DNA from: Clostridioides sp. ES-S-0010-02
GTDB taxonomy: Bacteria > Bacillota > Clostridia > Peptostreptococcales > Peptostreptococcaceae
Length of the DNA: 64,000 nt
Direction: 5' to 3'
NCBI GenBank assembly: GCA_020641055.1
Contig: CP067345.1
Span: forward strand, 2,225,317-2,289,316
In this document: positions 18,365-56,835 of the stretch, in pieces
How positions within the stretch are numbered: the first letter of the stretch is position 1
Layout of the letters: each line of letters starts with the position of its first letter
Translations under genes and position numbers: made by a program
Notes under the pieces: generated by a model
What the model was told of the DNA's origin: nothing
The model's input: only the letters and a program-made list of their open reading frames with translations
Databases searched by the model: none

Positions 18365-18517
18365 TAAAAAAACAATAAGAGAGGAATTAATCCTCTCTTT
18401 TAAATTTAATTAGATTTGGCAGGGCGGCGTATCCTGCATCTCTATTAACTACCCTATAAGCAGCGTATTGGGTGCCTTTTCCAACCTCAAATCTAATAAA
18501 TAAATATTTACATATAT
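18365..18517 (-). ncRNA. Candidate structured RNA with its own promoter and terminator
   Basis: On the minus strand a consensus promoter (18524-18552) is followed by a compact, unusually GC-rich stretch that is closed by TTAGATTTG (18488-18496) pairing with CAAATCTAA (18410-18418). Inside it, GGCAGGGCGGCGTATCCTGC (plus strand) and TACCCTATAAGCAGCG form further helices. It ends with AAGAGAGGA/TCCTCTCTT (18377-18399) and a minus-strand U-run. No reading frame with a ribosome binding site spans it. The size is about 140-150 nt. It could belong to a conserved Clostridia sRNA family, for instance one of the spore-former RNAs, but I cannot name it from sequence alone. Confidence 0.65.
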
Positions 18518-34375: not shown

Positions 34376-34475
34376 CCTATAAATTTAATTTATATAGATA
34401 TATAGAAATAGAAAGATAGAATTTATGCAAAAGTGAAGTTCTATTTATAATAACAAAGACTTGAATATATATGTG

Positions 34476-34525
34476 AAAATAAACATGTTAAAAAATAAAA
34501 TCTATTTTTTACATGTTTATTTTTT
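34476..34525 (+). terminator. Terminator of the AraC-like gene
   Basis: AAAATAAACATGT (34476-34488) pairs with ACATGTTTATTTT (34511-34523), with further inner A/T pairing and a T-run. Confidence 0.7.
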
Positions 34526-34583
34526 ATGTTTTAAATATAATCAGTTTACTGCTGAATATAATATATTCAAGGAGTGTGATTTA

Positions 34584-36092
34584 ATGAATGTTTCTATTTA
34601 TCTGCGAAAAAGCAGAGCTGATGAAGAAGCAGAACACAGAGGTGAGTTTGAAACCTTAGGTAGACATAAAACAACACTACTAAAACTAGCAAAAGAACAA
34701 AACTTAAATGTAATTGATGTTAAAGAGGAACTTATTTCTGGAGAAAGTATAGAATATAGGCCTAAGATGTTAGAGCTACTAGATGAAGTTAAAAGTAATA
34801 ATTATGATGCTGTTTTAGTAATGGATATTGACCGTTTAGGACGTGGAAATATGCAAGACCAAGGATTAATATTAGATACTTTTAAAAAGTCTCAAACAAA
34901 AATTATTACTCCTAGGAAAACTTATGATTTGAATGACGAATTTGATGAAGAATATTCTGAATTTGAAGCTTTTATGGCTCGTAAAGAATTAAAACTAATA
35001 TCTAGGCGTATGCAAAGAGGTAAAATTAAAAGTATTGAAGAAGGTAAGTTTATTGCTCAGTCTCCTCCCTATGGATATGATATTAAATACTTAAACAATA
35101 AAGAAAGAATTCTTGTAGTAAATAAAGATAAAGCAAATGTTATTAAAATGATATTCGATATGTATTTAAAAGGAATTGGAGCCTGTAAAATATCCAAGTA
35201 TCTAAATGAACTTGGTTATAAAACCACAACAGGTAGAACTTGGTATGAAAAAGGTGTAAGAGATATTATAAAAAATAAAGTATATTGTGGCTACATAGTA
35301 TGGAATAAAGTTGAGAGAAAAAGAAATTCTAGTAGGACTAGAGGCATCGAGGAACAAATGGAAGTAAAAGGAAAACATGAACCAATAATAAGCGAAGAAA
35401 TATGGAATAAAGCGCAAGATATAAGAAAAAAACGCAGTAACTCACCTACTCCAAACAATAAAATAACCAATCCTTTAGCTGGAATTATAAAATGTGGATA
35501 TTGTGGTCATACTTTAGTTGCAAAATCTAATACAACATCAAAAGGATATGAAAAATATATAGTCTGCACTAATTGTAAAAACAAATCTACTAAATTATAC
35601 ATATTAGAAAATAAAGTTTTAGAGGTTTTAAGTAAATGGCTAACAGATTATAAGCTATCTTTGAAAGAAGAACTTGTTTTTAAAGATAAATTTGAAGATA
35701 ATTTAAAATGTACTCTAACATCCTTAAAAAAAGAACTTGAGAACCTAGAGAAACAAAAGGGAGGATTACATGATTTTTTAGAACAAGGAATATATAGTTC
35801 AGATGTATTTATAGAACGTTCAAATATACTTACATCACGTATAGAAGATGTTAAAAATTCTATAAATAAAGTAAATATAGATATTAAAATAGCAAAGGAA
35901 AAAAGCACTGTTAGAATGCAAATTATTCCTCAACTTGAAAAAGTTTTAAGAGAATACACAGAAGAGAAAGAGCCTTATCTGAAAAATATATTACTTAAAA
36001 CTATAATTGACCATGTTGTATATAAAAAAGAGCCTAATCAAAAATGCGATGATTTTTCTTTAATACTATACCCCATTATATCAAAAGATTAA
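34584..36092 (+). CDS. Large serine recombinase of element 2
   Basis: 502 residues from ATG 34584, seven to eight bases after AAGGAG. An upstream in-frame extension of 41 codons crosses the terminator and has no ribosome binding site. Catalytic domain: VSIYLRKSRAD with nucleophilic Ser10, VMDIDRLGRGNMQDQGLIL and ELKLISRRMQRGK. Recombinase domain about 150-250 (PPYGYDIKYL, TGRTWYEKGVRDII), zinc ribbon CGYCGHTL ... CTNC, coiled coil about 350-450. It differs strongly from the recombinase of element 1 and is nearer the YLRKSR-type integrases. It ends 15 bases before the right inverted repeat, in the standard position for such elements. Confidence 0.93.
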   Translation: MNVSIYLRKSRADEEAEHRGEFETLGRHKTTLLKLAKEQNLNVIDVKEELISGESIEYRPKMLELLDEVKSNNYDAVLVMDIDRLGRGNMQDQGLILDTFKKSQTKIITPRKTYDLNDEFDEEYSEFEAFMARKELKLISRRMQRGKIKSIEEGKFIAQSPPYGYDIKYLNNKERILVVNKDKANVIKMIFDMYLKGIGACKISKYLNELGYKTTTGRTWYEKGVRDIIKNKVYCGYIVWNKVERKRNSSRTRGIEEQMEVKGKHEPIISEEIWNKAQDIRKKRSNSPTPNNKITNPLAGIIKCGYCGHTLVAKSNTTSKGYEKYIVCTNCKNKSTKLYILENKVLEVLSKWLTDYKLSLKEELVFKDKFEDNLKCTLTSLKKELENLEKQKGGLHDFLEQGIYSSDVFIERSNILTSRIEDVKNSINKVNIDIKIAKEKSTVRMQIIPQLEKVLREYTEEKEPYLKNILLKTIIDHVVYKKEPNQKCDDFSLILYPIISKD

Positions 36093-46994: not shown

Positions 46995-47139
46995 GTAGCT
47001 ACACCTCACCCTCTCCACTAGTTATATTTAGTTGATTCACTTTATTTTACTATTAAAAACTCTTTTTTACAATTGAGTTTTATAAATTGTTAATAAAGAA
47101 CATATTAAATAAGTATTATTTATAGGATAATAAAATTAA

Positions 47140-47227
47140 GGGTATAAATACAGCAATAGCATATTTAATTACATTAGTAACAATAAGACTAATATGATTA
47201 AATATGTTATTGTTTATATTTATACCC
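47140..47227. repeat. 88-base near-perfect long hairpin
   Basis: GGGTATAAATA (47140-47150) at one end and its complement (47217-47227) at the other enclose further matching sequence (AATAGCATATTTAAT / ATTAAATATGTTATT and CATTAGT / ACTAATA), giving arms of about 38-40 bases with a few mismatches and a short loop. It lies after tyrA. It may be the operon terminator, but it lacks a clear U-run and is much longer than usual, so a MITE-like palindromic repeat is an alternative. Confidence 0.55.
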
Positions 47228-47268
47228 ACTTACATGTAATTTTAAATTTATATAATTTAAATAAGAGT

Positions 47269-48108
47269 CTATTTTTCTAAATACTCTCTTCTGACTGAAG
47301 ATGTTTTAAAATATTCAACAAGTTTATTTTTATCATTATTAAAGATAGCCTCTTTTATTAAATTCACTTCCATCTCAAAATTTTCTATAGATTTTAATAA
47401 ATTATCTCTATTTCCTAAAAAAAGTTCACTCCATAGGTCTTCATTCATATTTGCAATACGAGTTAAATCCCTATAGCTATCTCCAATAAATTTGCCTGTA
47501 TCTCTACCTTCTTCATCACTATTTATAAGAGCAACTGCCATTACATGAGGTAATTGAGATGTAAAAGCTATCATTTCATCATGTTTTTGTGCAGTTAATT
47601 TTTTTACTCTTTTAAATCCTATCTCTAAAATTAAATTCTCAACAAACTCCAAGTTTTTTATATTATTTCTGCCAGTTGGAGTAATTATATAATTTGCTTC
47701 TTTAAATACCTCATCACTCGCAAAATCAATTCCCTTTTTTTCTCTACCTGCCATTGGATGACCAAATATAAAATCTATATCATCTGGAATAATTTTTAAG
47801 ACATCATTTATAAGAACTTCTTTTATTCCTGTGGTATCAGTAATTATAGTTCCTCTTTTAAAATACTCTTTATTATTTTCTAAAAAAGTTACAATTAATC
47901 TAGGATATATAGATAATATAATCAAATCAGCTTGTTTGAAAAATTCCTTCCCTGTAGTACATCCTTTTTTGATGATTTCTAACTCTTCTGCTTTTTTCAG
48001 AGTTTCAGAATCTATATCTACTCCAAACACATCTTCATATCCAGCTTTTTTCAATGCCTTAGCAAAAGAACCTCCTATAACTCCTAATCCTACAACAACA
48101 ATATTCAT
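47269..48108 (-). CDS. tyrA: Prephenate dehydrogenase
   Basis: 279 residues. N-terminal Rossmann fold with VVGLGVIGGSFAKALKKAGY (GxGxxG) and GVDIDSETLKKA (Asp for NAD). Then DTTGIKEVL and FGHPMAGREKKGIDFA, the conserved HPMAG substrate loop with catalytic His, plus QLPHVMAVALI in the C-terminal helical domain. It oxidatively decarboxylates prephenate to 4-hydroxyphenylpyruvate for tyrosine. No regulatory ACT domain, so feedback control must lie elsewhere. Last gene of the aromatic operon, 15 bases after aroK. Confidence 0.93.
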   Translation of the reverse strand: MNIVVVGLGVIGGSFAKALKKAGYEDVFGVDIDSETLKKAEELEIIKKGCTTGKEFFKQADLIILSIYPRLIVTFLENNKEYFKRGTIITDTTGIKEVLINDVLKIIPDDIDFIFGHPMAGREKKGIDFASDEVFKEANYIITPTGRNNIKNLEFVENLILEIGFKRVKKLTAQKHDEMIAFTSQLPHVMAVALINSDEEGRDTGKFIGDSYRDLTRIANMNEDLWSELFLGNRDNLLKSIENFEMEVNLIKEAIFNNDKNKLVEYFKTSSVRREYLEK

Positions 48109-48123
48109 TATTCTTATTTCCCC

Positions 48124-48657
48124 CTAGATTATTTTTTCATTAAATTCAAATTTAAAATTTTTATTAATTGCATTTTTGATATTATATACAGCATCATTTA
48201 ATGATTTATCATTTAAAATTTCTATATCCGCAGCATTTTTATAAAGATTTATTCTTTCATTATAAAGATTGTATAATTTCTCTTTTCCATCTTGTAATAA
48301 GGGTCTTGAATTAATATTTATATCTTCTAAAATTTTTTCTATAGGTCTATTAATAAAAAGTATTATTCCTGCTTCTTTGAGTATTTCTATATTAATATCT
48401 TTTTTTATTACACCACCACCAGTAGAGACTACTGTTTTATCACTAGTAGAAAGTTCTCTACATGCTTGAGTTTCATAATTTCTAAAAACATCTTCTCCTT
48501 CTAAAAATAATTCTGCTATACTTTTTTGAGATATTTTATTTATATAATCATCCATATCACAAAAACTACAATTATATTCCTGTGCTAAAAGTTTTCCAAT
48601 TGTAGTTTTTCCACTACCTGGCATACCTATTAATATTACTTTTTCTTTGTTTATCAT
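48124..48657 (-). CDS. aroK: Shikimate kinase
   Basis: 177 residues from ATG 48657, after AGGGGG. A TTG six bases earlier lies too near that site. P-loop GMPGSGKTTIGKLLA, shikimate-binding DMDDYI and FRNYE, GGGVI for the substrate, lid SRPLL with Arg. It phosphorylates shikimate at O3. Overall organisation as in AroK/AroL. In the operon between aroE and tyrA. Confidence 0.93.
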   Translation of the reverse strand: MINKEKVILIGMPGSGKTTIGKLLAQEYNCSFCDMDDYINKISQKSIAELFLEGEDVFRNYETQACRELSTSDKTVVSTGGGVIKKDINIEILKEAGIILFINRPIEKILEDININSRPLLQDGKEKLYNLYNERINLYKNAADIEILNDKSLNDAVYNIKNAINKNFKFEFNEKII

Positions 48658-48668
48658 AATCAATCCCC

Positions 48669-49478
48669 CTATAAAAAGTTTAATTTTATTTCTTCATATA
48701 TAATATTTAAAACACCATTATCTATTTTAGTATTCTGCCATATTTCTTGAGATTTTATTGCTTGCCCAACCAACATATATAATCCATTACACGTTTTTTT
48801 ACCTAGATTCTGACCAATTTCTAGAAAAGAAGTTTTTTTAGGATTGTAAATCAAATCTACTAATATATCAAAATTTTGTATAATAGATTTTGAGACAGGT
48901 GATAATCCTATATTAGGGTACATTCCTACTGGAGTTGCATTTAATATTATATCTCCTTTTATATTCTTAAGTTCTTCATAATCTATTAATATAGCTGAAT
49001 TATTTGATAGCTTTTTATTATCTTTTTTTCTACTTGAAACATAAACTTTATCTATTCCAGAATCAAGAAGGTATGTTATGGCTGCTTTAGATGCACCTCC
49101 AGTACCTAATATAACAGCTGTCTTTCCTTGAATATCAATATTAGCTATTTTGAACATAATGTCAAGTCCAAAATAATCTGTATTATAGCCATATAATTTA
49201 TTCTCTTTAAGTAAAATTGTGTTAACTGCCCCTATACGCTTTGCTTCTGGAGATATAAAATCTAAAAACTCCATGACTCTTTCTTTATATGGGACAGTAA
49301 CATTTACACCTTTGATTCTTAATAATTTTATAGCATCATCCAACATTGGTATATTTTCTTTTGAAATCTCAAAGTTCTTATAAGCACCTTCAATATTCAA
49401 TACTTCAAATAACCTCTTATGAATTTGAGGTGAAACGCTATGAGATAGCTTTTCACCTATTAGACCAAAAAAATTCAT
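48669..49478 (-). CDS. aroE: Shikimate dehydrogenase
   Basis: 269 residues from ATG 49478, after GGAGGTGG. The upstream frame MIGGGK is the ribosome binding site itself. N-terminal domain has KLSHSVSPQIHKRL (substrate loop SxS), NVTVPYKERV with catalytic Lys, and NTDYFGLD. NADP domain has ILGTGGASKAAI (GxGGxxxA) and NATPVGMYPN. It reduces 3-dehydroshikimate to shikimate. Operon position after pheA with a 46-base gap. Confidence 0.94.
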   Translation of the reverse strand: MNFFGLIGEKLSHSVSPQIHKRLFEVLNIEGAYKNFEISKENIPMLDDAIKLLRIKGVNVTVPYKERVMEFLDFISPEAKRIGAVNTILLKENKLYGYNTDYFGLDIMFKIANIDIQGKTAVILGTGGASKAAITYLLDSGIDKVYVSSRKKDNKKLSNNSAILIDYEELKNIKGDIILNATPVGMYPNIGLSPVSKSIIQNFDILVDLIYNPKKTSFLEIGQNLGKKTCNGLYMLVGQAIKSQEIWQNTKIDNGVLNIIYEEIKLNFL

Positions 49479-49524
49479 CTTTCCACCTCCAATCATTCTG
49501 TTTTAAAGAAAAAATTACATTTAT

Positions 49525-50721
49525 CTATTCAATTTTATTTCTATATACACCGATAAATTTGAAGTATGCTGTATTACGTTCTATCATGTCTAATAAGCTA
49601 CATACTTTTGAATCATATATAGAACATTCAAAATCTATATAAAAGAAATATCTCCAAGAAGCATTTTTCATTGGTCTTGATTCTATTTTTGTCATATTTA
49701 TATCGTTTTCAGCAAAGTATCCAAGTATTTTATAAAGCTTTCCAGCTTCATGCTCAACAGAAAATACAATACTCATCTTATTTGACTCTTCTTCAATGTG
49801 TATCTCATTACTAATTACCACAAATCTAGTATAATTATCTGTTATATCATTTATACAAGGACTTATTATTTCTAATCCATAAATCGTTGCGGCTTTTTTA
49901 CTAGCAATTGCTGCCTTTGTTTTATCTTGAAGCCTTTTAACAAGTTCAGCACTAGTTGCTGTATTATTAAAAGGTATCAATTTCCATTGACTATTTTGTT
50001 TTAAAAATTCACTACTCTGACCTATTCCTTGTGGATGTGAATATATTTCTTTAATATCTTCAAGGTTTGTGCCCTTTATTCCAATTAAATTTTGATTTAT
50101 TTTTATACACTCTTCCCCAACTATATAGAATCCATATTTTCCTAAAAGGTCGTAAGTTTCAGAAATTGCTCCTGTAGAGGAGTTTTCTATAGGTATTATT
50201 CCATAATTTATTTCTTTATTTTGAAGTGCTATAAAGACATCTTCAAATTCTTTAAATTGTTTTTTTGTGATTTGAGTGTTAAAAAATTTTGTTAGTGCTT
50301 CTTCTGTGAATGAACCTGATATACCAGGAAATCCTACTAGGAGATTTTTTTTATTAAGTTCACTTTTTAATGACTTATATTTATATAGATTTAACAAATC
50401 AAAATTTTCATTTGATGAATTTGAACTGTTTTCATTTTTTTCCTCTACATCATTATCTATTAATCTTTTTTGCAAATTTCTACTAACTTCCATTACTGAA
50501 TTGAAAAATTGTACAGTCTCTTGTGAATATTTTTTATCTTCTAGATTATCTACTGCTTTACTCAATACTTTTTCTTCTCTATCTTTTTGAAGTATAGTAG
50601 TATTATTTTTCATTTTATATCTAGCAATTTCGAGAACTATATTCATCCTTTTTTCAAATAGTTGAACAAGTTCCTTATCTATATCATCAATTTTATTTCT
50701 ATATCTCGTTAAATCCTCCAT
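49525..50721 (-). CDS. pheA: Bifunctional chorismate mutase / prephenate dehydratase
   Basis: 398 residues. Residues 1-85 are an AroQ-type mutase (YRNKIDDIDKELVQLFEKRM with Arg and Lys of the active site). After a Ser/Asn-rich linker, the dehydratase (about 120-305) has GFPGISGSFTEEAL, IPIENSSTGAISETYDLL and DNYTRFVVI (Thr-Arg-Phe). The ACT domain (about 310-398) has GKLYKILGYFAENDINMTKIE (two parts) and ESRPMKN for Phe binding, implying feedback inhibition. It makes phenylpyruvate. AAGGACG precedes the ATG, three bases after aroC ends. Confidence 0.94.
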   Translation of the reverse strand: MEDLTRYRNKIDDIDKELVQLFEKRMNIVLEIARYKMKNNTTILQKDREEKVLSKAVDNLEDKKYSQETVQFFNSVMEVSRNLQKRLIDNDVEEKNENSSNSSNENFDLLNLYKYKSLKSELNKKNLLVGFPGISGSFTEEALTKFFNTQITKKQFKEFEDVFIALQNKEINYGIIPIENSSTGAISETYDLLGKYGFYIVGEECIKINQNLIGIKGTNLEDIKEIYSHPQGIGQSSEFLKQNSQWKLIPFNNTATSAELVKRLQDKTKAAIASKKAATIYGLEIISPCINDITDNYTRFVVISNEIHIEEESNKMSIVFSVEHEAGKLYKILGYFAENDINMTKIESRPMKNASWRYFFYIDFECSIYDSKVCSLLDMIERNTAYFKFIGVYRNKIE

Positions 50722-50723
50722 TA

Positions 50724-51803
50724 TTATCGTCCTTTCATCAAATCAAAAATTCCAATAGCTGTTACTGCTTCTATTACAGGTACAGCTCTTTGAACTATAC
50801 AAGGGTCGTGTCTACCTTTAATAGCTAAAACATCATCTTTTTTATCTTTTATATTAACAGTATTTTGTTGTTTACTAATTGATGGAGTTGGCTTAATTGC
50901 TACTTTAAAAACTATTGGCATTCCAGTTGTAATACCTCCAACAATCCCACCATTATTATTAGTTTTACTTTTTACTGTATCTTCATCATAGTACATTTCA
51001 TCATTACTTTGAGAACCATACATGTCTGTAATATCAAATCCTAATCCAAATTCTACACCTTTTATAGATGGAACAGAAAATAGTAAATGTGATAGAGTAG
51101 ATTCAACAGAATCAAAAAACGGATTTCCAACACCTACATTAACACCTACTACTGCACATTCAATTATACCACCAACTGAATCTCCCTGATTTTTTGCATC
51201 TAGAATAGTATTTTTTATAGCTTCTTCTTTTGATAAATCAAGCAAAGGTAATTCTAAATTTTGTAAATTTAATAATTCTTGTCTTGAGATGTCTATATAA
51301 TTAAAACCCTTATCCTCTATATTCTTGATTTTTTTTATGTGGGCTCCTATCTCTATACCTTCTTGTGATAAAATTTGTTTACATATAGAACCACAAAATA
51401 CTAATGGAGCAGTTATTCTTCCTGAGAAATGTCCTCCTCCTCTATAGTCATTAAACCCAGAATATTTTATATGACCTGTATAGTCTGCATGACCTGGTCT
51501 CATCAAGTTTTTAACTTCTCCATAATCTTTTGAGCGAGTATCACTATTTCTTATAATTGCACATAATGGAGTTCCTGTAGTTTTTCCATCAAAATATCCA
51601 CTTAAAATTTCTGGTATATCACTTTCATTTCTTGAAGTTGATATAGAATTTTTTCCTGGTGCTCTTCTCTTCATTTCTTTATCAATTTTATCAAAGTCTA
51701 ACTCAATGCCAGCTGGAAGACCATCTATATTTATACCTATAGCATTTCCATGAGATTCTCCAAAGATGGATATTTTTAAATTATTTCCCCATATTCCACT
51801 CAT
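50724..51803 (-). CDS. aroC: Chorismate synthase
   Basis: 359 residues from ATG 51803, after AGGAGG. Signatures GNNLKISIFGESHGNAIG, RPGHADYTGHIKY and FRGGG-like YRGGGHFSGRITA are present, with GGITTGMPIVFKVAIKPT and GRHDPCIVQRAVPVIEA near the end, the FMN and EPSP-binding loops. It converts EPSP to chorismate using reduced FMN. Its start lies inside the end of aroA (23-base overlap), coupling translation. Confidence 0.95.
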   Translation of the reverse strand: MSGIWGNNLKISIFGESHGNAIGINIDGLPAGIELDFDKIDKEMKRRAPGKNSISTSRNESDIPEILSGYFDGKTTGTPLCAIIRNSDTRSKDYGEVKNLMRPGHADYTGHIKYSGFNDYRGGGHFSGRITAPLVFCGSICKQILSQEGIEIGAHIKKIKNIEDKGFNYIDISRQELLNLQNLELPLLDLSKEEAIKNTILDAKNQGDSVGGIIECAVVGVNVGVGNPFFDSVESTLSHLLFSVPSIKGVEFGLGFDITDMYGSQSNDEMYYDEDTVKSKTNNNGGIVGGITTGMPIVFKVAIKPTPSISKQQNTVNIKDKKDDVLAIKGRHDPCIVQRAVPVIEAVTAIGIFDLMKGR

Positions 51804-53097
51804 CAATTCTTCCTCCTAACATCTCAAAATCTTTAAAAAAATGTGGATAAGACTTTGATACACACTCAAAATCTTTCAATATGATTGGTTTATCACATCT
51901 ACAGGAAGCAATTGCAAGTGTCATGGCAATCCTGTGGTCTTTGTGACTCCATACCTCTACGCCTCCATTTAATTTGCTTACTCCCTCAATTATCAAACTA
52001 TCCTCTTTTTCTTCTATATTTGCCCCAAGCTTACTTAACTCAACATTTATTGCATGAAGTCTATCACACTCCTTAATTCTAAGTCTTCCAGCATTGATTA
52101 TAGTCGTCTTCCCTATACTTAAAGCTGCTACCACAGATAAAACGGGTATTATATCTGGGCATTGAGATGCATCTATCAAAGTACTATTTAGACAATTTGT
52201 TATTCCTTTGATTTTGTTGTCTTCTCTTAAAATTTCCACACCCATCCTTGATAAAATCTCAATAACTTCACTATCTCCTTGAAGAGAATTTTCTTTAAGG
52301 TCAAGTATGTTAATATCTTCTCCAATAGCATCTGCTGATAAATAAAATGCACCTTGAGAATAATCTCCTTCAACTTTATAATCTATAGCTTTATAAGTTT
52401 GATTTCCTTTTATGATAAATTCTTTATAATTATTGTTTACAATTTCTACCCCAAAATCTTTCATAGTTGAAATAGTTAAATCTAAATACCCTTTAGATTC
52501 CAGTTCAGTGGTAATTATTATCTTTGAGTCACTATCTAATGTAGGTAATATAAATAATAATCCTGTTATAAATTGAGAACTTATATTTCCTTTTACTCTA
52601 AATTCGTCTGGTTTAAGTTTTCCTGATACGATTAAATCCAGTTTATTTTCTTTGTAGTTGTATTCTATGCCTTGTCTGTCAAATATCTCATAATAAGTAT
52701 TAAGTGGTCTTTTTCCAAGATTACCTCTTCCTATAAATCTTTTTACTCCATCAAAGGCTAAAGATATAGGTACCAGAAACCTTAAAGTAGAACCTGATTC
52801 ATTACAATCTATAGTCAATTTAGGTTGATTCAATTGATTCTCTTTATTTAAGATTGCTTCTTTAGAGTAGATTCCTGTAATTTCTAAAATGTCTTCTTTT
52901 TTTTCTATGGTTGCTCCTAATGATATCATTGCTCTTATAGTAGCTATGATATCATCAGAAAAATCTATATTAGAAATTCTACTTTTTCCATCACTTAAAG
53001 CAGCACAAATAACTGCTCTATGTGCCATACTTTTTGATGGAGGAATTTTCACATCTCCTGATAATTTGCTTGGATATATTTTTAAGCTTCCCATCAT
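51781..53097 (-). CDS. aroA: 3-phosphoshikimate 1-carboxyvinyltransferase (EPSP synthase)
   Basis: 438 residues. Motifs: IPPSKSMAHRAVICAAL (Lys and Ser for S3P), CNESGSTLRFLVPISL with GSTLRF, GKRPLN, SSQFITGLL, CPDIIPVLSV and RLRIKECDRLHA, GVEVWSHKDHRIAM. It transfers enolpyruvyl from PEP to shikimate-3-phosphate. The glyphosate loop reads SGSTLRFL rather than the class I LGNAGTAMRP, i.e. the class II (glyphosate-tolerant-like) type common in Gram-positives. ATG overlaps the aroB stop by four bases. Confidence 0.95.
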   Translation of the reverse strand: MMGSLKIYPSKLSGDVKIPPSKSMAHRAVICAALSDGKSRISNIDFSDDIIATIRAMISLGATIEKKEDILEITGIYSKEAILNKENQLNQPKLTIDCNESGSTLRFLVPISLAFDGVKRFIGRGNLGKRPLNTYYEIFDRQGIEYNYKENKLDLIVSGKLKPDEFRVKGNISSQFITGLLFILPTLDSDSKIIITTELESKGYLDLTISTMKDFGVEIVNNNYKEFIIKGNQTYKAIDYKVEGDYSQGAFYLSADAIGEDINILDLKENSLQGDSEVIEILSRMGVEILREDNKIKGITNCLNSTLIDASQCPDIIPVLSVVAALSIGKTTIINAGRLRIKECDRLHAINVELSKLGANIEEKEDSLIIEGVSKLNGGVEVWSHKDHRIAMTLAIASCRCDKPIILKDFECVSKSYPHFFKDFEMLGGRIDEWNMGK

Positions 53098-54158
53098 TTT
53101 ACCTCCTGAAAAAATTTAGAAGTAGTATCATATATAATACTTTCTCCAATATCCTTTAAAAGTATTATTTTTAGTGTATCACCTAGATTTTTTTTATCAA
53201 GAGATATAGTATCTATTATAGATTTATTATCTCCTAATTCAACATCATAAGGTAAATCATAATTTATTAAAATTGATTTTATAAGCTCTGATGTACCTTG
53301 TTTTGTAATCCCTTTTTTTTCACTCTCTAATGTTATCTTATACATGCCTACACCAACAGCTTCTCCATGAGTATAACCTGTAAAGTTATAGTGTTTCTCA
53401 ATAGCATGACCTAGTGTGTGTCCAAAATTTAAAAGCATCCTATCTCCTAAATCTCTCTCATCAGCTTCAACTACAGTTTTTTTGATAAGGCAACATTTGT
53501 GTATAATGTATTCTATATGTTGCATCACTTCTTCCCTATTTTTTAAGTTTTCAAGCTTATTAAAAAAAGTTTTATCTTTTATACATCCATACTTTATAAC
53601 CTCTGCCATTCCATCTCTATAAAATTTTTCTGGAAGAGATGATAATACATCTGGGTCAATAAATACTGCTTTCGGCTGATAAAAACTCCCTACTAAGTTT
53701 TTTCCCCTTTCAAGGTCAACTCCAACTTTTCCACCTACAGAACTGTCCACTTGAGCTAATAGAGATGTTGGAATTTGAATAAAATTTACACCTCTTAAAA
53801 AAGTTGCTGCTGTAAATCCTCCTAAATCTCCAATTACCCCTCCTCCCAATGTGATAATCAAATCTTTTCTAGTTAACTTAAAGTCAAGTAAACTTTCATA
53901 TATTTTAGGTAGAGTATTAAATGACTTTGTCTCTTCACCAGCTTCTAATATTATAGCTTTCGTTTCAAATCCAGATTCAATCAAATTATTTTTAACTTCA
54001 TATAAATATAATTTTGCTACATTTTCATCTGTAACAATAAAAATCTTATTTCCAGAATATATTTTTTTAATTTCTTTACCTATATTTTTTAATATACTTT
54101 TTTTTATAAATATATTGTAACTATTCTCTTTTAGATTAACTAATAATTTTTCTTCCAC
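53094..54158 (-). CDS. aroB: 3-dehydroquinate synthase
   Basis: 354 residues from GTG 54158, after AAGGATGG. NAD- and metal-dependent fold with GEETKSFNTLPKIYESLL, LGGGVIGDLGGFTAATFLRG, PTSLLAQVDSSVGGKVGVD, and the metal ligands in RDGMAEVIKYG, LLNFGHTLGHAIEKHYNF and GYTHGEAVG. It cyclises DAHP to dehydroquinate. Gap to the DAHP synthase is 21 bases. A dehydroquinate dehydratase gene, the next pathway step, is not in this window. Confidence 0.95.
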   Translation of the reverse strand: MEEKLLVNLKENSYNIFIKKSILKNIGKEIKKIYSGNKIFIVTDENVAKLYLYEVKNNLIESGFETKAIILEAGEETKSFNTLPKIYESLLDFKLTRKDLIITLGGGVIGDLGGFTAATFLRGVNFIQIPTSLLAQVDSSVGGKVGVDLERGKNLVGSFYQPKAVFIDPDVLSSLPEKFYRDGMAEVIKYGCIKDKTFFNKLENLKNREEVMQHIEYIIHKCCLIKKTVVEADERDLGDRMLLNFGHTLGHAIEKHYNFTGYTHGEAVGVGMYKITLESEKKGITKQGTSELIKSILINYDLPYDVELGDNKSIIDTISLDKKNLGDTLKIILLKDIGESIIYDTTSKFFQEVK

Positions 54159-54179
54159 GTTTAACCATCCTTCTATAGA

Positions 54180-55193
54180 TTATATTTCTCTTCCAACTGC
54201 TGATGCGATAGTTTTTAGTTCATTTATTAATCCTTCATACTCATCTGGTTTAATTGATTGTTTACCATCACAAAGTGCATGAGCTGGGTCATTATGAACC
54301 TCTATTATTAAACCATCTGCTCCAACCGCAATTGCTGCTTTAGATAGAGAGTCAACCATCCATGATTTTCCTGCTGCATGACTTGGGTCAACTATAACTG
54401 GTAAATGGCTAAGTTTTTTTACAGCTAAGATTGCACTTAAATCCAAAGTATTTCTAGTGTATGTTTCAAAAGTTCTTATACCTCTTTCACAAAGAACCAC
54501 ACTTTCGTTTCCTCCAGCCATTATATATTCAGCTGACATTAGCCACTCTTCAATTGTAGCAGATAATCCTCTTTTTAAAAGTATTGTTTTATTTGTTTTT
54601 CCTAATTCTTTCAATAAATCGAAGTTTTGCATGTTTCTTGCTCCAACTTGAATTACATCTACATTTTCTTCAAATACATCTATATCTTGTGTTGACATTA
54701 TTTCTGTAACTATAGGAAGACCTGTTTTTTCTTTTGCTTTTTTTAATAAATCTAATCCATCATATCTTAATCCTTGGAAAGCGTATGGAGATGTTCTTGG
54801 CTTGAATGCTCCTCCTCTTAAAAATCCTGCTCCTGATTTTTTTACATCTTCAGCTATAGAAACTATTTGTTCCTCTGTTTCAACAGAACAAGGACCAGCT
54901 ATCATAGTAAGTTTTTTTGACCCAATTTCCATACCATCTACATTTATAATTGAAGGTTCTGGATGAAATTTTCTATTTGCTTTTTTAAAAGGTTCTACTA
55001 CATGCATAACTTTTTCAACCACCTTATTTGCTTCTATTCTTTTGGCATCTATTTTACTAGTATCTCCAACTAACCCCAAAACAGTTAATTCTTTTCCATC
55101 TATAGGATTCACTTCTACACCTTCTTTACAAATAGCTTCTATTAATTTCTTAACTTCTCTCTTATCTGCTCCTACTTTTAATACCACTATCAT
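54180..55193 (-). CDS. aroF: 3-deoxy-7-phosphoheptulonate (DAHP) synthase, type I beta
   Basis: 337 residues, first structural gene of the aromatic operon. Residues 1-70 form a ferredoxin-like regulatory domain (VVLKVGADKREVKKLIEAI) as in Thermotoga-type enzymes, where it binds Tyr or Phe. The catalytic barrel shows MIAGPCSVETEEQI, RGGAFKPRTSPYAFQG, QVGARNMQNFDLLKELG, LLKRGLSATIEEWL, CERGIRTFETYTRNTLD and VDPSHAAGKSW. It condenses PEP and erythrose-4-phosphate. AGGGGG lies nine bases before ATG 55193. A leader peptide and attenuator-like terminator sit between promoter and this start. Confidence 0.95.
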   Translation of the reverse strand: MIVVLKVGADKREVKKLIEAICKEGVEVNPIDGKELTVLGLVGDTSKIDAKRIEANKVVEKVMHVVEPFKKANRKFHPEPSIINVDGMEIGSKKLTMIAGPCSVETEEQIVSIAEDVKKSGAGFLRGGAFKPRTSPYAFQGLRYDGLDLLKKAKEKTGLPIVTEIMSTQDIDVFEENVDVIQVGARNMQNFDLLKELGKTNKTILLKRGLSATIEEWLMSAEYIMAGGNESVVLCERGIRTFETYTRNTLDLSAILAVKKLSHLPVIVDPSHAAGKSWMVDSLSKAAIAVGADGLIIEVHNDPAHALCDGKQSIKPDEYEGLINELKTIASAVGREI

Positions 55194-55232
55194 CTTTACT
55201 ACCCCCTAATGTTATATTTTTATACTTGAGTT

Positions 55233-55267
55233 TAAAATAAAAAAGAGAACTCATTAATGAGTTCTCT
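55233..55267 (-). terminator. Attenuator-like intrinsic terminator upstream of aroF
   Basis: AGAGAACTCATT at 55244-55255 is followed by its exact reverse complement (to 55267), a 24-base perfect palindrome. On the minus strand it is followed by TTTTTTATTTT. It lies after the leader peptide and 51 bases before the first aro gene, so read-through decides operon expression. Confidence 0.85.
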
Positions 55268-55353
55268 AAAATAATCTATTAAGCATCAAATCTTACATGA
55301 CCATATAAAATAATCATTTTTATAAAATTGACCTATGCCCAAGGTTATTAAAA

Positions 55354-55485
55354 TCAAGGCCTCACCAGAAAGGAATTACATGTATTTTTGTAAAAGAAAT
55401 AGCCAGCGCTAAAATAAAAGCCCCAGAACATAAAATAAAAAAAGCTATAAAGTTTTGCCACTAGTTCTTTTAAAATCCCTTTCAT
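55354..55485 (-). CDS. Aromatic-residue-rich leader peptide of the aro operon (43 aa)
   Basis: ATG 55485 follows GGAGGATAATACT, an excellent ribosome binding site, about 40 bases after the predicted transcription start. Residues 13-32 are YSFFYFMFWGFYFSAGYFFY: 14 of 20 are Phe, Tyr or Trp (eight Phe, five Tyr, one Trp). The stop TGA is at 55354-55356, and a perfect terminator follows 86 bases further on. The position, tiny size and codon run are those of leader peptides such as pheL or trpL, where ribosome stalling on scarce charged tRNA prevents termination. The run could also be a small membrane protein, but its place between promoter and attenuator argues for control. Confidence 0.8.
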   Translation of the reverse strand: MKGILKELVAKLYSFFYFMFWGFYFSAGYFFYKNTCNSFLVRP

Positions 55486-55531
55486 AGTATTATCCTCCAT
55501 TTTTATAATTTATTAATCTTCTTGTTTAATA

Positions 55532-55559
55532 ATTATAGCAAAGAAAATATAATTGTCAA
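55532..55559 (-). promoter_or_regulatory. Promoter of the aro leader and operon
   Basis: On the minus strand: TTGACA (55559-55554), 16-base spacer, TATAAT (55537-55532), both consensus. Start of transcription predicted near 55525. The remaining 55268-55353 and 55560-55661 carry small hairpins (AUGAUUA/UGGUCAU at about 55293-55313) that could be alternative RNA structures. Confidence 0.75.
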
Positions 55560-55661
55560 TATTTTCTATAAATATTTTCAATTTAAAATATTTTTTTATT
55601 TTCTTAATACACTTTTTCTTTTAATATATTTTTCTAAAATCGTTTAAAAAGCATCTTATTT

Positions 55662-56618
55662 TTACAATAATTTTTTTATTTTAAATATTATAATTCCAAC
55701 AAAAACTATGCCTAACATCAAAAGTAATGTTGCTGGATATCCATAAAGCCAGTTTAGTTCTGGCATATACCTAAAGTTCATTCCATATATTCCTGTTATA
55801 ATTGTAAGTGGTGCAGAGATAGCCGTAAGTAGGGTCAATTTTGTAATTAAGTGATTCGTTTTTTCACCTACTCTAGAAGAATAAATATCTAGGAGTTTAT
55901 CTGCTAACTCACGTGTTGATAGTGCAAAATTATATAATTTATCAATACCAAAATCTATCCCTTGAAAATTTTCAAGATTATATTTTTTTACATTCGAGTA
56001 TTTTAAATATCGTATATTTTCTTTAACTATTCTATCTCCAATATATAAAAGTGGTCTGGTGTTTTTAACTATAGTTCTAGTCAATCCTCTTACATCACTT
56101 ATTCTAGAAACATGATTTTTATGAATATTGTCCATCATCTCATCTTCTATTTCAAGAATTAATTCTTCAACTTTTTCTAAAGATTCAAAACCATTTTTTA
56201 TAACTTCTCTAAAAATTAAATAATTTATCTTAAAAAGGTTTATGACAGGATTTTTTTCAAGTTGAGAGTTTTTTAAAATAAGATTCTTTACAAATTCAAA
56301 TAGAAAATGCTCTTCATTTACAACAACTAATATAAAATTATCTGATAAATACATATTTACTTCTTCTATAACAGCTTCTCCATTTCTCAATTCAAAAGTA
56401 TTTAGGCTCAAAAAATCATAATTATCAAATAAATCAAGCTTTGTTATTTCATCAAATTTAAGACAATCATTAAATGTTATTTCATCTATATCCAAAGTTT
56501 CCTTGAGTAATTTTAAATTTTTTGGAGCACTTAATATAAGATATGAATTTTCTGGTATATAAAATTTTGTTCTAAAATCTTTTGCAATCTCTCTTGTATT
56601 TAAATTCAATATATACAT
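55662..56618 (-). CDS. CorA-like divalent metal ion channel
   Basis: 318 residues from ATG 56618 (AGGAG seven bases upstream). The N-terminal cytoplasmic domain (about 1-250) has the CorA helices. Two C-terminal membrane segments enclose the signature YGMNFRYMPELNW (GMN selectivity loop) at about 283-295, and the protein ends KIKKLL. It should carry Mg2+ or Co2+/Ni2+ down the potential. It is a diverged CorA, with MPEL as in many Gram-positive homologues. Single-gene unit between the aro promoter and the Kdp genes. Confidence 0.9.
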   Translation of the reverse strand: MYILNLNTREIAKDFRTKFYIPENSYLILSAPKNLKLLKETLDIDEITFNDCLKFDEITKLDLFDNYDFLSLNTFELRNGEAVIEEVNMYLSDNFILVVVNEEHFLFEFVKNLILKNSQLEKNPVINLFKINYLIFREVIKNGFESLEKVEELILEIEDEMMDNIHKNHVSRISDVRGLTRTIVKNTRPLLYIGDRIVKENIRYLKYSNVKKYNLENFQGIDFGIDKLYNFALSTRELADKLLDIYSSRVGEKTNHLITKLTLLTAISAPLTIITGIYGMNFRYMPELNWLYGYPATLLLMLGIVFVGIIIFKIKKLL

Positions 56619-56835
56619 AAATCTACTCCTAAACCTCAATTTACATTTTTAAAATTATATATATTTATTACTGTAATTATTTTTCACTATTTCAGTAATT
56701 ATTATTTAATATTTATTTATATTAAATTTATTAGAAAATAAATATTAAATCTTTTATTTTTTAACTTAGACTTTTCTTACAAATTATACCATACTTTTAT
56801 TTTAAAATGTGTTTAATATTATCAATGTTAAAAAA

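Follow-up and report, generated by a model that had tools for sequence, protein, structure and literature searches.

The window, a stretch of 64,000 nucleotides from Clostridioides sp. ES-S-0010-02, contains a short minus-strand leader with corA on one side and an eight-gene operon for aromatic amino acids on the other. In this operon, aroF, aroB, aroA, aroC, the chorismate mutase-prephenate dehydratase gene and aroE all pass a curated NCBIfam cut-off; the names aroK and tyrA are best matches scoring below curated cut-offs. The four named DAHP synthase genes closest to aroF, with 94-96% protein identity, come from C. difficile, which is the most likely species here. The features of the locus are the following, with coordinates of the window:

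55532..55559, minus strand: predicted sigma-A-type promoter, TTGACA-N16-TATAAT, with 12 of 12 consensus matches
55494..55498, minus strand: Shine-Dalgarno sequence GGAGG, 8 nt upstream of the ATG
55354..55485, minus strand: leader peptide ORF MKGILKELVAKLYSFFYFMFWGFYFSAGYFFYKNTCNSFLVRP, 43 codons and TGA, conserved across relatives
55390..55449, minus strand: aromatic codon run, residues 13-32, with 14 of 20 codons for F, Y or W
55403..55426, minus strand: P1 hairpin within the leader ORF, CUGG-G-GCU, loop UUUAUUUU, AGC-G-CUGG, with a G.G mismatch
55392..55402, minus strand: candidate pause region CTATTTCTTTT, with a U at 55392, 11 nt 3' of P1
55361..55368, minus strand: putative antiterminator strand (segment 2) CUGGUGAG, leader codons 40-42, found by comparison with relatives
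55254..55267, minus strand: segment 3, the terminator 5' arm and loop, of which CUCAUUA (55261-55255) pairs with segment 2
55234..55267, minus strand: intrinsic terminator, a 24-nt palindrome (55267-55244) with a U tract
54180..55193, minus strand: aroF, encoding DAHP synthase, with which the regulated operon opens
47269..54158, minus strand: aroB, aroA, aroC, pheA (CM-PDT), aroE, aroK and tyrA, the rest of the operon

The original prediction had described a consensus promoter, a strong ribosome binding site, a 43-codon frame with 14 aromatic codons in residues 13-32 and a 24-base palindrome with a U-run before aroF, and all four are present. The promoter is the only site with 12 of 12 matches in positions 47000-56700 (among 60 listed of 69 promoter-like sites), and GGAGG at 55498-55494 precedes an ATG at 55485, from which the frame extends to a TGA at 55356-55354. 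Of five terminator-like sites in the same interval, the palindrome with its T run is the only one on the minus strand. To judge from its sequence, a translatable short ORF with a Shine-Dalgarno sequence thus stands between promoter and operon. In the gap that separates corA from the leader promoter (55661-55560, minus strand), the scan of 47000-56700 detected no terminator-like site, so that transcription may read through from corA into the leader.

The leader peptide and its aromatic codon run

With the leader peptide as query, matches at E <= 0.01 were obtained in 22 of 71 genomes of the family, including two genomes with three copies, and the genome of this organism holds one match only. 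A profile made from 16 leader peptides (A1) has matches in 70 of 393 genomes of the order, distributed over 47 of 158 genera. Under strict filters, an RNA model (R1) built from 78 of these leaders matches 46 genomes among 391 drawn from the class and 13 among 398 drawn from the phylum, 11 of these 13 being outside the class; the genome draws from order, class and phylum overlap. In total, 126 leaders were examined in full, 89 found by peptide and 37 by the model. A Shine-Dalgarno-like sequence precedes a start codon in 71 of the 89 and in 32 of the 37, respectively.

Richness in aromatic codons is by itself noteworthy in this DNA but does not settle the matter. The six frames of the whole window contain 25 stop-free 20-codon stretches with at least 10 codons for F, Y or W, among which the leader run is the richest with 14 and the runner-up has 13. 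As AT-rich DNA alone nearly reaches such values, the significance of the run comes from its conservation. Another part of the window contains, by eye, a serine-recombinase-like ORF of 543 aa (34461-36092, plus strand), a sign of a mobile element; an aromatic stretch of 13 in 20 codons at 35411 (minus strand) is antisense to it and was rejected as a candidate.

In the leader alignment, aromatic codons are frequent over a span that opens six codons ahead of the Trp codon and closes six codons past the Ser of a SAG motif, and their share falls to 0 and 4% at the two codons following the run. It rises a second time, to 44%, at codon 13 after the Ser, which is the UUU preceding segment 2. The core contains at least eight aromatic codons in all 37 model-found members. 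A run of codons for the pathway products is hence conserved in the relatives. The original prediction had called for this comparison of frame and aromatic run, and its outcome is favourable, no member having been seen with P1 and without the run; it is a weak test, since the peptide profile and the RNA model both favour sequences with P1 and the run.

The P1 hairpin within the coding sequence

Inside the leader ORF, a hairpin overlooked in the original prediction is conserved, as judged by comparison of the leaders. In the codon alignment, CUGGGGCU ... AGCGCUGG is almost fixed at the nucleotide level, third positions included, and the P1 loop varies by whole codons, mostly aromatic (in leader L100, the 5' arm is in another frame, one nucleotide off). 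The arms pair about one position which is usually a purine-purine mismatch and which is turned into a pair in L014, L098, L125, L166 and L169. The 89 peptide-found leaders contain 22 distinct arm pairs, a count that includes L022 and L100 with uncorrected anchors, both hand-corrected for the alignment.

Alignment A2 retained 78 of the 89 rows, after removal of L013 (contig end), L021 (decayed, no terminator), L133 (probable false match) and eight identical cores. P1 pairing is found in 99.5% of its 546 cells, and three of the seven pairs have changed on both sides. None of 500 shuffles matched the observed pairing, both-sided changes or covariation score, and 10 of 500 matched the number of pair types. 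Slid versions of P1 pair in 19-44%, and RNAalifold recovers the helix unaided. In the model-found set (36 of the 37 sequences, L175 being left out as a near copy of L174), P1 pairing reaches 96.8%, with three pairs changed on both sides and one pair unformed in 7 of the 36. Here, the observed count of both-sided pairs is attained by 9 of 500 shuffles and that of pair types by 95 of 500. Since the search that yielded this set relied on the structure, its sequences are biased towards P1. Both sets together have both-sided changes in five different pairs of the seven. The genome of this organism has one perfect P1 pattern and three more sites with 2-3 mismatches.

Such strong conservation of sequence, together with the purine-purine mismatch in most arm pairs, could point to a metabolite riboswitch or a protein-binding RNA, with P1 as its binding site and translation as a by-product. 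We consider this very unlikely, as P1 is a single 7-bp hairpin, the members compared carry the aromatic codon run, and Rfam at gathering thresholds gave no match on the leader element, either in the window or in 18 other members. At a lax threshold, the only match on the window was aspC (19.2 bits, E 2.3), taken as chance, and the 18 other members gave a T-box in L123, a T-box below gathering in L083 and a weak mir-1252 match in L130, all outside the leader element. T-boxes (RF00230) are absent from the window, and 26 score above the cut-off elsewhere in the genome. The window also holds a Skipping-rope RNA (RF02924) at 18411-18495 (minus strand, 75.8 bits).

The original prediction had further suggested that one leader could sense tryptophan along with phenylalanine and tyrosine. 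Trp sensing is unsupported by the comparison, although 15 of 81 leaders carry at least two Trp codons. The core Trp codon is missing in 4 of 81 peptide-found leaders and present in 24 of 37 model-found ones. Where it is replaced, the stem is kept: UGG becomes UUG with GCU to GCA in L118, L121 and L130, and CAG in L134 and L154. These losses, accompanied by changes in the other arm, explain UGG as stem sequence, and Phe and Tyr are the best reading of the signal which a ribosome-mediated attenuator would sense here.

The same substitutions bear on a TnaC-like arrest peptide, in which the nascent WGFYFSAGY would stall the ribosome on free aromatic amino acids. This peptide is well conserved in the alignment; its conservation, however, tracks the RNA pairing, with Trp giving way to Leu or Gln alongside other-arm changes, Ala and Gly varying with the stem and the loop gaining aromatic codons. 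As the C-terminal part of the leader peptide is moreover read in two frames (see below), nascent-chain arrest is improbable.

Regarding the function of P1, it is slightly more likely than not that the hairpin, a candidate so far, causes RNA polymerase to pause. For NusG-dependent pauses in Bacillus subtilis, the accessible part of the report describes a hairpin that precedes the RNA 3' end by 11-12 nt and, in the non-template strand, a TTNTTT motif at -11 to -6 (PMC12288461). P1 and the U 11 nt onward would fit this spacing: the 11th nucleotide after P1 is a U in 81 of 81 leaders, and the next base is a G in 44. Four codons past the Ser of SAG, only 75% of the codons are aromatic, yet T fills the first position in 80 and the second in 78 of 81. 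Directly after P1, the looser motif YTNTTT occurs in 52 of 82 leaders, as against 83 of 262 upstream pairs of aromatic or Leu codons in matching register (p 5.6e-7); the window has CTATTT at this position. In addition, the NusG of this organism carries an Asn-Thr pair (VVRNTKG, aligned to VVRNTPG and LVRSVPR of PDB NusG chains), which, according to the accessible part of the same report, marks the pause-promoting type (PMC12288461).

Alternatively, P1 could slow or position the ribosome within the same attenuator. This possibility, which falls somewhat short of probable, fits the location of P1 mid-way in the regulatory codons and the frequency of the strict TTNTTT motif, which is not enriched after P1 (18 of 82 versus 40 of 262 upstream codon pairs, p 0.18). 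A polymerase pause would better account for the invariant U at exactly 11 nt, the enrichment of YTNTTT and the type of NusG.

Terminator, antiterminator and proposed switching

A terminator is present in 86 of 89 peptide-found and in all 37 model-found members. The original prediction had found no clear antiterminator by eye, and the minimum free energy fold of the whole 293-nt leader (z -3.0) likewise displays the terminator and lacks the antiterminator. Comparison of the leaders nevertheless uncovered one: the last leader codons (commonly UUUCUAAUGAG; codons 40-42 in the window) are complementary to the terminator 5' arm and loop. An alternative judged by eye, in which the P1 arms would pair with the terminator, gave way to segment 2.

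The two segments change jointly. UCUAAUGAG occurs with CUCAUUAGA, UCUAAGA with UCUUAGA, CAAUGAGA with UCUCAUUG, AUUCGAG with CUUGAAU and GGGAAACU with AGUUUCCC; in the model-found set, AAGCUCGC occurs with GCGAGCUU and UCUAAGG with CCUUAGA. The duplex of segments 2 and 3 ranks among the best 10 of 200 dinucleotide shuffles in 48 of 86 leaders, versus about 4.7 expected (mean z -2.12), with 38 of the 86 falling outside. When terminators were swapped among 79 distinct members, the own partner had a row- and column-corrected advantage of -2.78 kcal/mol, versus 0.00 +/- 0.27, reached in 0 of 10000 permutations; for 28 of the 79 terminators and 22 of the 79 leaders, the own partner was within the top 10%. 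The result recurs in the model-found set, with 26 of 35 leaders in the best 10 versus 1.9 expected (L176 and L178 were too short) and 0 of 10000 permutations in the swap. R1, with which this second set was found, leaves out the antiterminator region.

In the window, UGGUGAG (55367-55361) pairs with CUCAUUA (55261-55255). At -10.1 kcal/mol with flanks and rank 14 of 200 shuffles, this duplex is among the weaker cases. In the same genus, L002, L004, L005, L006 and L008, with CUCAUUAG, rank 2-6 of 200, and L007 ranks 31. The ORF stops directly after segment 2 in the window leader and in L003, and eight codons later in L002 and L004-L008.

Segment 2 with an (A/G)AUG(A/G)G core is read in two frames, by 6 and 21 leaders in the first set and by 8 and 10 in the second, and is hence kept as RNA and not as peptide. 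These frame shifts, the loop insertions in the leader ORF, the nearly invariant third positions of P1 at the codon level and the association with aro genes also argue against a gene for a small membrane protein followed by an ordinary terminator before aroF. Despite the hydrophobic and conserved nature of the 43-aa peptide, such a gene is hardly credible.

The layout of the leaders is consistent with switching by a stalled ribosome. Segment 2 starts 38-50 nt after the start of the P1 3' arm in 73 of 86 leaders, typically at about 42 nt. With a ribosome footprint of about 12-15 nt, segment 2 would be just clear of a ribosome that occupies the last codon of the run. In folding calculations, the terminator 5' arm and loop pair upstream with a mean probability of 0.68 behind a stalled ribosome versus 0.21 with a ribosome at the stop codon. 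With shuffled upstream RNA, the value behind a stalled ribosome is 0.44, and 79 of 86 leaders exceed their own shuffles. Once the 3' arm is included, equilibrium favours the terminator in both situations (mean probability over 86 leaders 0.82 stalled and 0.92 at stop; 0.96 in both for the window leader). Mutually exclusive pairing is thus found by comparison, and equilibrium folding alone does not show switching: given that a stalled ribosome does not tip the balance away from the terminator, switching has to be a matter of kinetics, with the antiterminator forming first.

In 61 of 86 members, segment 2 and the stop codon are more than 15 nt apart (median 26), so that segment 2 lies outside a ribosome at the stop and simple masking there does not explain termination in most members; the ribosome at the stop may act as a barrier, or following ribosomes may mask segment 2. 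In the window leader, this distance is 4 nt, and masking by the ribosome at the stop would work.

Collectively, these data are best explained by ribosome-mediated attenuation of transcription in the aromatic amino acid operon, a reading that is highly probable. The logic of pheL/trpL-type attenuation, invoked by the original prediction, is supported, the leader, P1, the terminator and the pairing of segments 2 and 3 having been found by sequence comparison. The pause, the stall, the signal and the order of events deciding the outcome would be as follows. RNA polymerase would transcribe the leader and probably pause just 3' of P1, so that a ribosome can load and draw level. A shortage of charged tRNA-Phe or tRNA-Tyr would stall this ribosome within the aromatic run, and segment 2, just past the footprint of a ribosome on the last aromatic codon, would be free; it would pair with the terminator 5' arm and loop as these emerge, the terminator would not form and aroF to tyrA would be transcribed. 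If Phe and Tyr are plentiful, the ribosome would move on across segment 2 to the stop codon, segment 3 would fold with segment 4, and transcription would stop near 55240.

Downstream genes and relation to known attenuators

The first gene within 600 nt downstream that is similar to one of the window's operon is aroF in 97 of the 126 leaders, pheA in seven, aroK in three, aroE in two, and aroB and tyrA in one each; 15 have none. Among these 15, L019 and L089 have aroF further downstream, with L093 similar to L089, and in all three a gene of unassigned role lies in between (in L019, a weak Iso_dh match below the cut-off). The genome of L019 has a second leader, L027, immediately upstream of aroF. 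L023-L025, from genomes of genus g5, precede a LarA-like gene (Lar_N; the scan covered L023), which suggests a racemase of an aromatic hydroxy acid and not of lactate. An SBF-family transporter follows L026 (scanned) and an SSF symporter L082 and L090 (the scan covered L082); both are candidate transporters tied to aromatic amino acids. L107 precedes, by eye, an apparent type II dehydroquinase. The others are cut at contig ends (L013, L124), masked (L080), decayed (L021) or a probable false match (L133).

The principle of attenuation is Yanofsky's, and the E. coli pheL, trpL and hisL leaders are leader-peptide attenuators. The present leader has in common with them a short ORF rich in end-product codons, an intrinsic terminator, an antiterminator on the terminator 5' arm and a leader pause hairpin, which is a candidate here. 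It differs in that P1 lies within the regulatory run and lacks the antiterminator strand, and in that the element as a whole is conserved in sequence beyond the class; the likeness drawn here is one of layout. Control of aromatic synthesis in clostridia has usually been sought in T-boxes, TRAP or DNA-binding proteins, and an analysis by Panina et al. in 2003 of aromatic regulation in low-GC Gram-positives reportedly dealt with T-boxes and an ARO box.

The following comparisons are drawn from the accessible parts of the reports cited. Pause hairpins occur in the hisL and trpL leaders (PMC9291695). Attenuation has been proposed for uORFC-13-1, upstream of aroF in Acholeplasma (PMC8632094), which, by its description, resembles the present leader in having one or more Phe codons in its uORF, a further base-paired substructure, a terminator and aroF; its reported range, unlike that found here, is Acholeplasma and environmental sequences only, with 24 representatives. 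Leader-peptide attenuation by His-leaders has been predicted in C. difficile itself, other Peptostreptococcaceae, the B. cereus group and Erysipelotrichales (PMC9413887); these concern the histidine operon, have 3-5 consecutive His codons and are described there without mention of a hairpin inside the ORF. Similarly, his leaders are described in Bacilli (PMC2965389), and a leucine-rich attenuator peptide of S. aureus (PMC5794164) is another case from Firmicutes, which differs by responding to branched-chain amino acids. A parallel for a pause is offered by the B. subtilis tlrB and vmlR leaders, with NusG-dependent pausing which in tlrB synchronises RNA polymerase with the leader ribosome (PMC6851288, PMC9226507, PMC12288461). 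They would share the hairpin 11-12 nt before the 3' end and a T-rich motif at -11 to -6 with the pause predicted here; they sense antibiotics, whereas here the pause region itself would consist of regulatory codons and strict TTNTTT is found in a minority. In its accessible part, a review of C. difficile riboswitches names T-boxes for the tRNA synthetases of Phe and Tyr and does not use the term "leader peptide" (PMC11477304). The accessible parts of PMC11109978, PMC7438776 and PMC11477304 make no mention of the present leader, and no aromatic leader attenuator in Clostridia was among the literature matches listed, as titles and abstract beginnings from mostly open literature.

Leader-peptide attenuation is therefore already known or predicted in Firmicutes; what looks new is that a hairpin is conserved within the ORF, that the layout is fixed and that the element extends past the class. 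A broader proposal, which we regard as evenly poised, is that of a single ancient and movable cassette of the clostridial phylum. In this cassette, the same nucleotides would serve as sensor codons and as a polymerase pause signal (P1, the T-rich stretch and the U at 11 nt), with an antiterminator strand at a fixed distance, and it would be placed before DAHP synthase, single aro genes, the LarA-like gene and transporters. If true, its presence before such varied genes would assign unknown genes to the metabolism of aromatic amino acids. As hairpin, T-rich stretch and codons can be varied separately, the role of pausing in the synchrony of ribosome and polymerase is directly testable. The element would also be a widespread leader-peptide attenuator outside Proteobacteria, unusual in that one RNA hairpin is kept across and beyond a class, and the leader would be a marker for genes of Phe and Tyr supply, such as those of LarA-like proteins and transporters.
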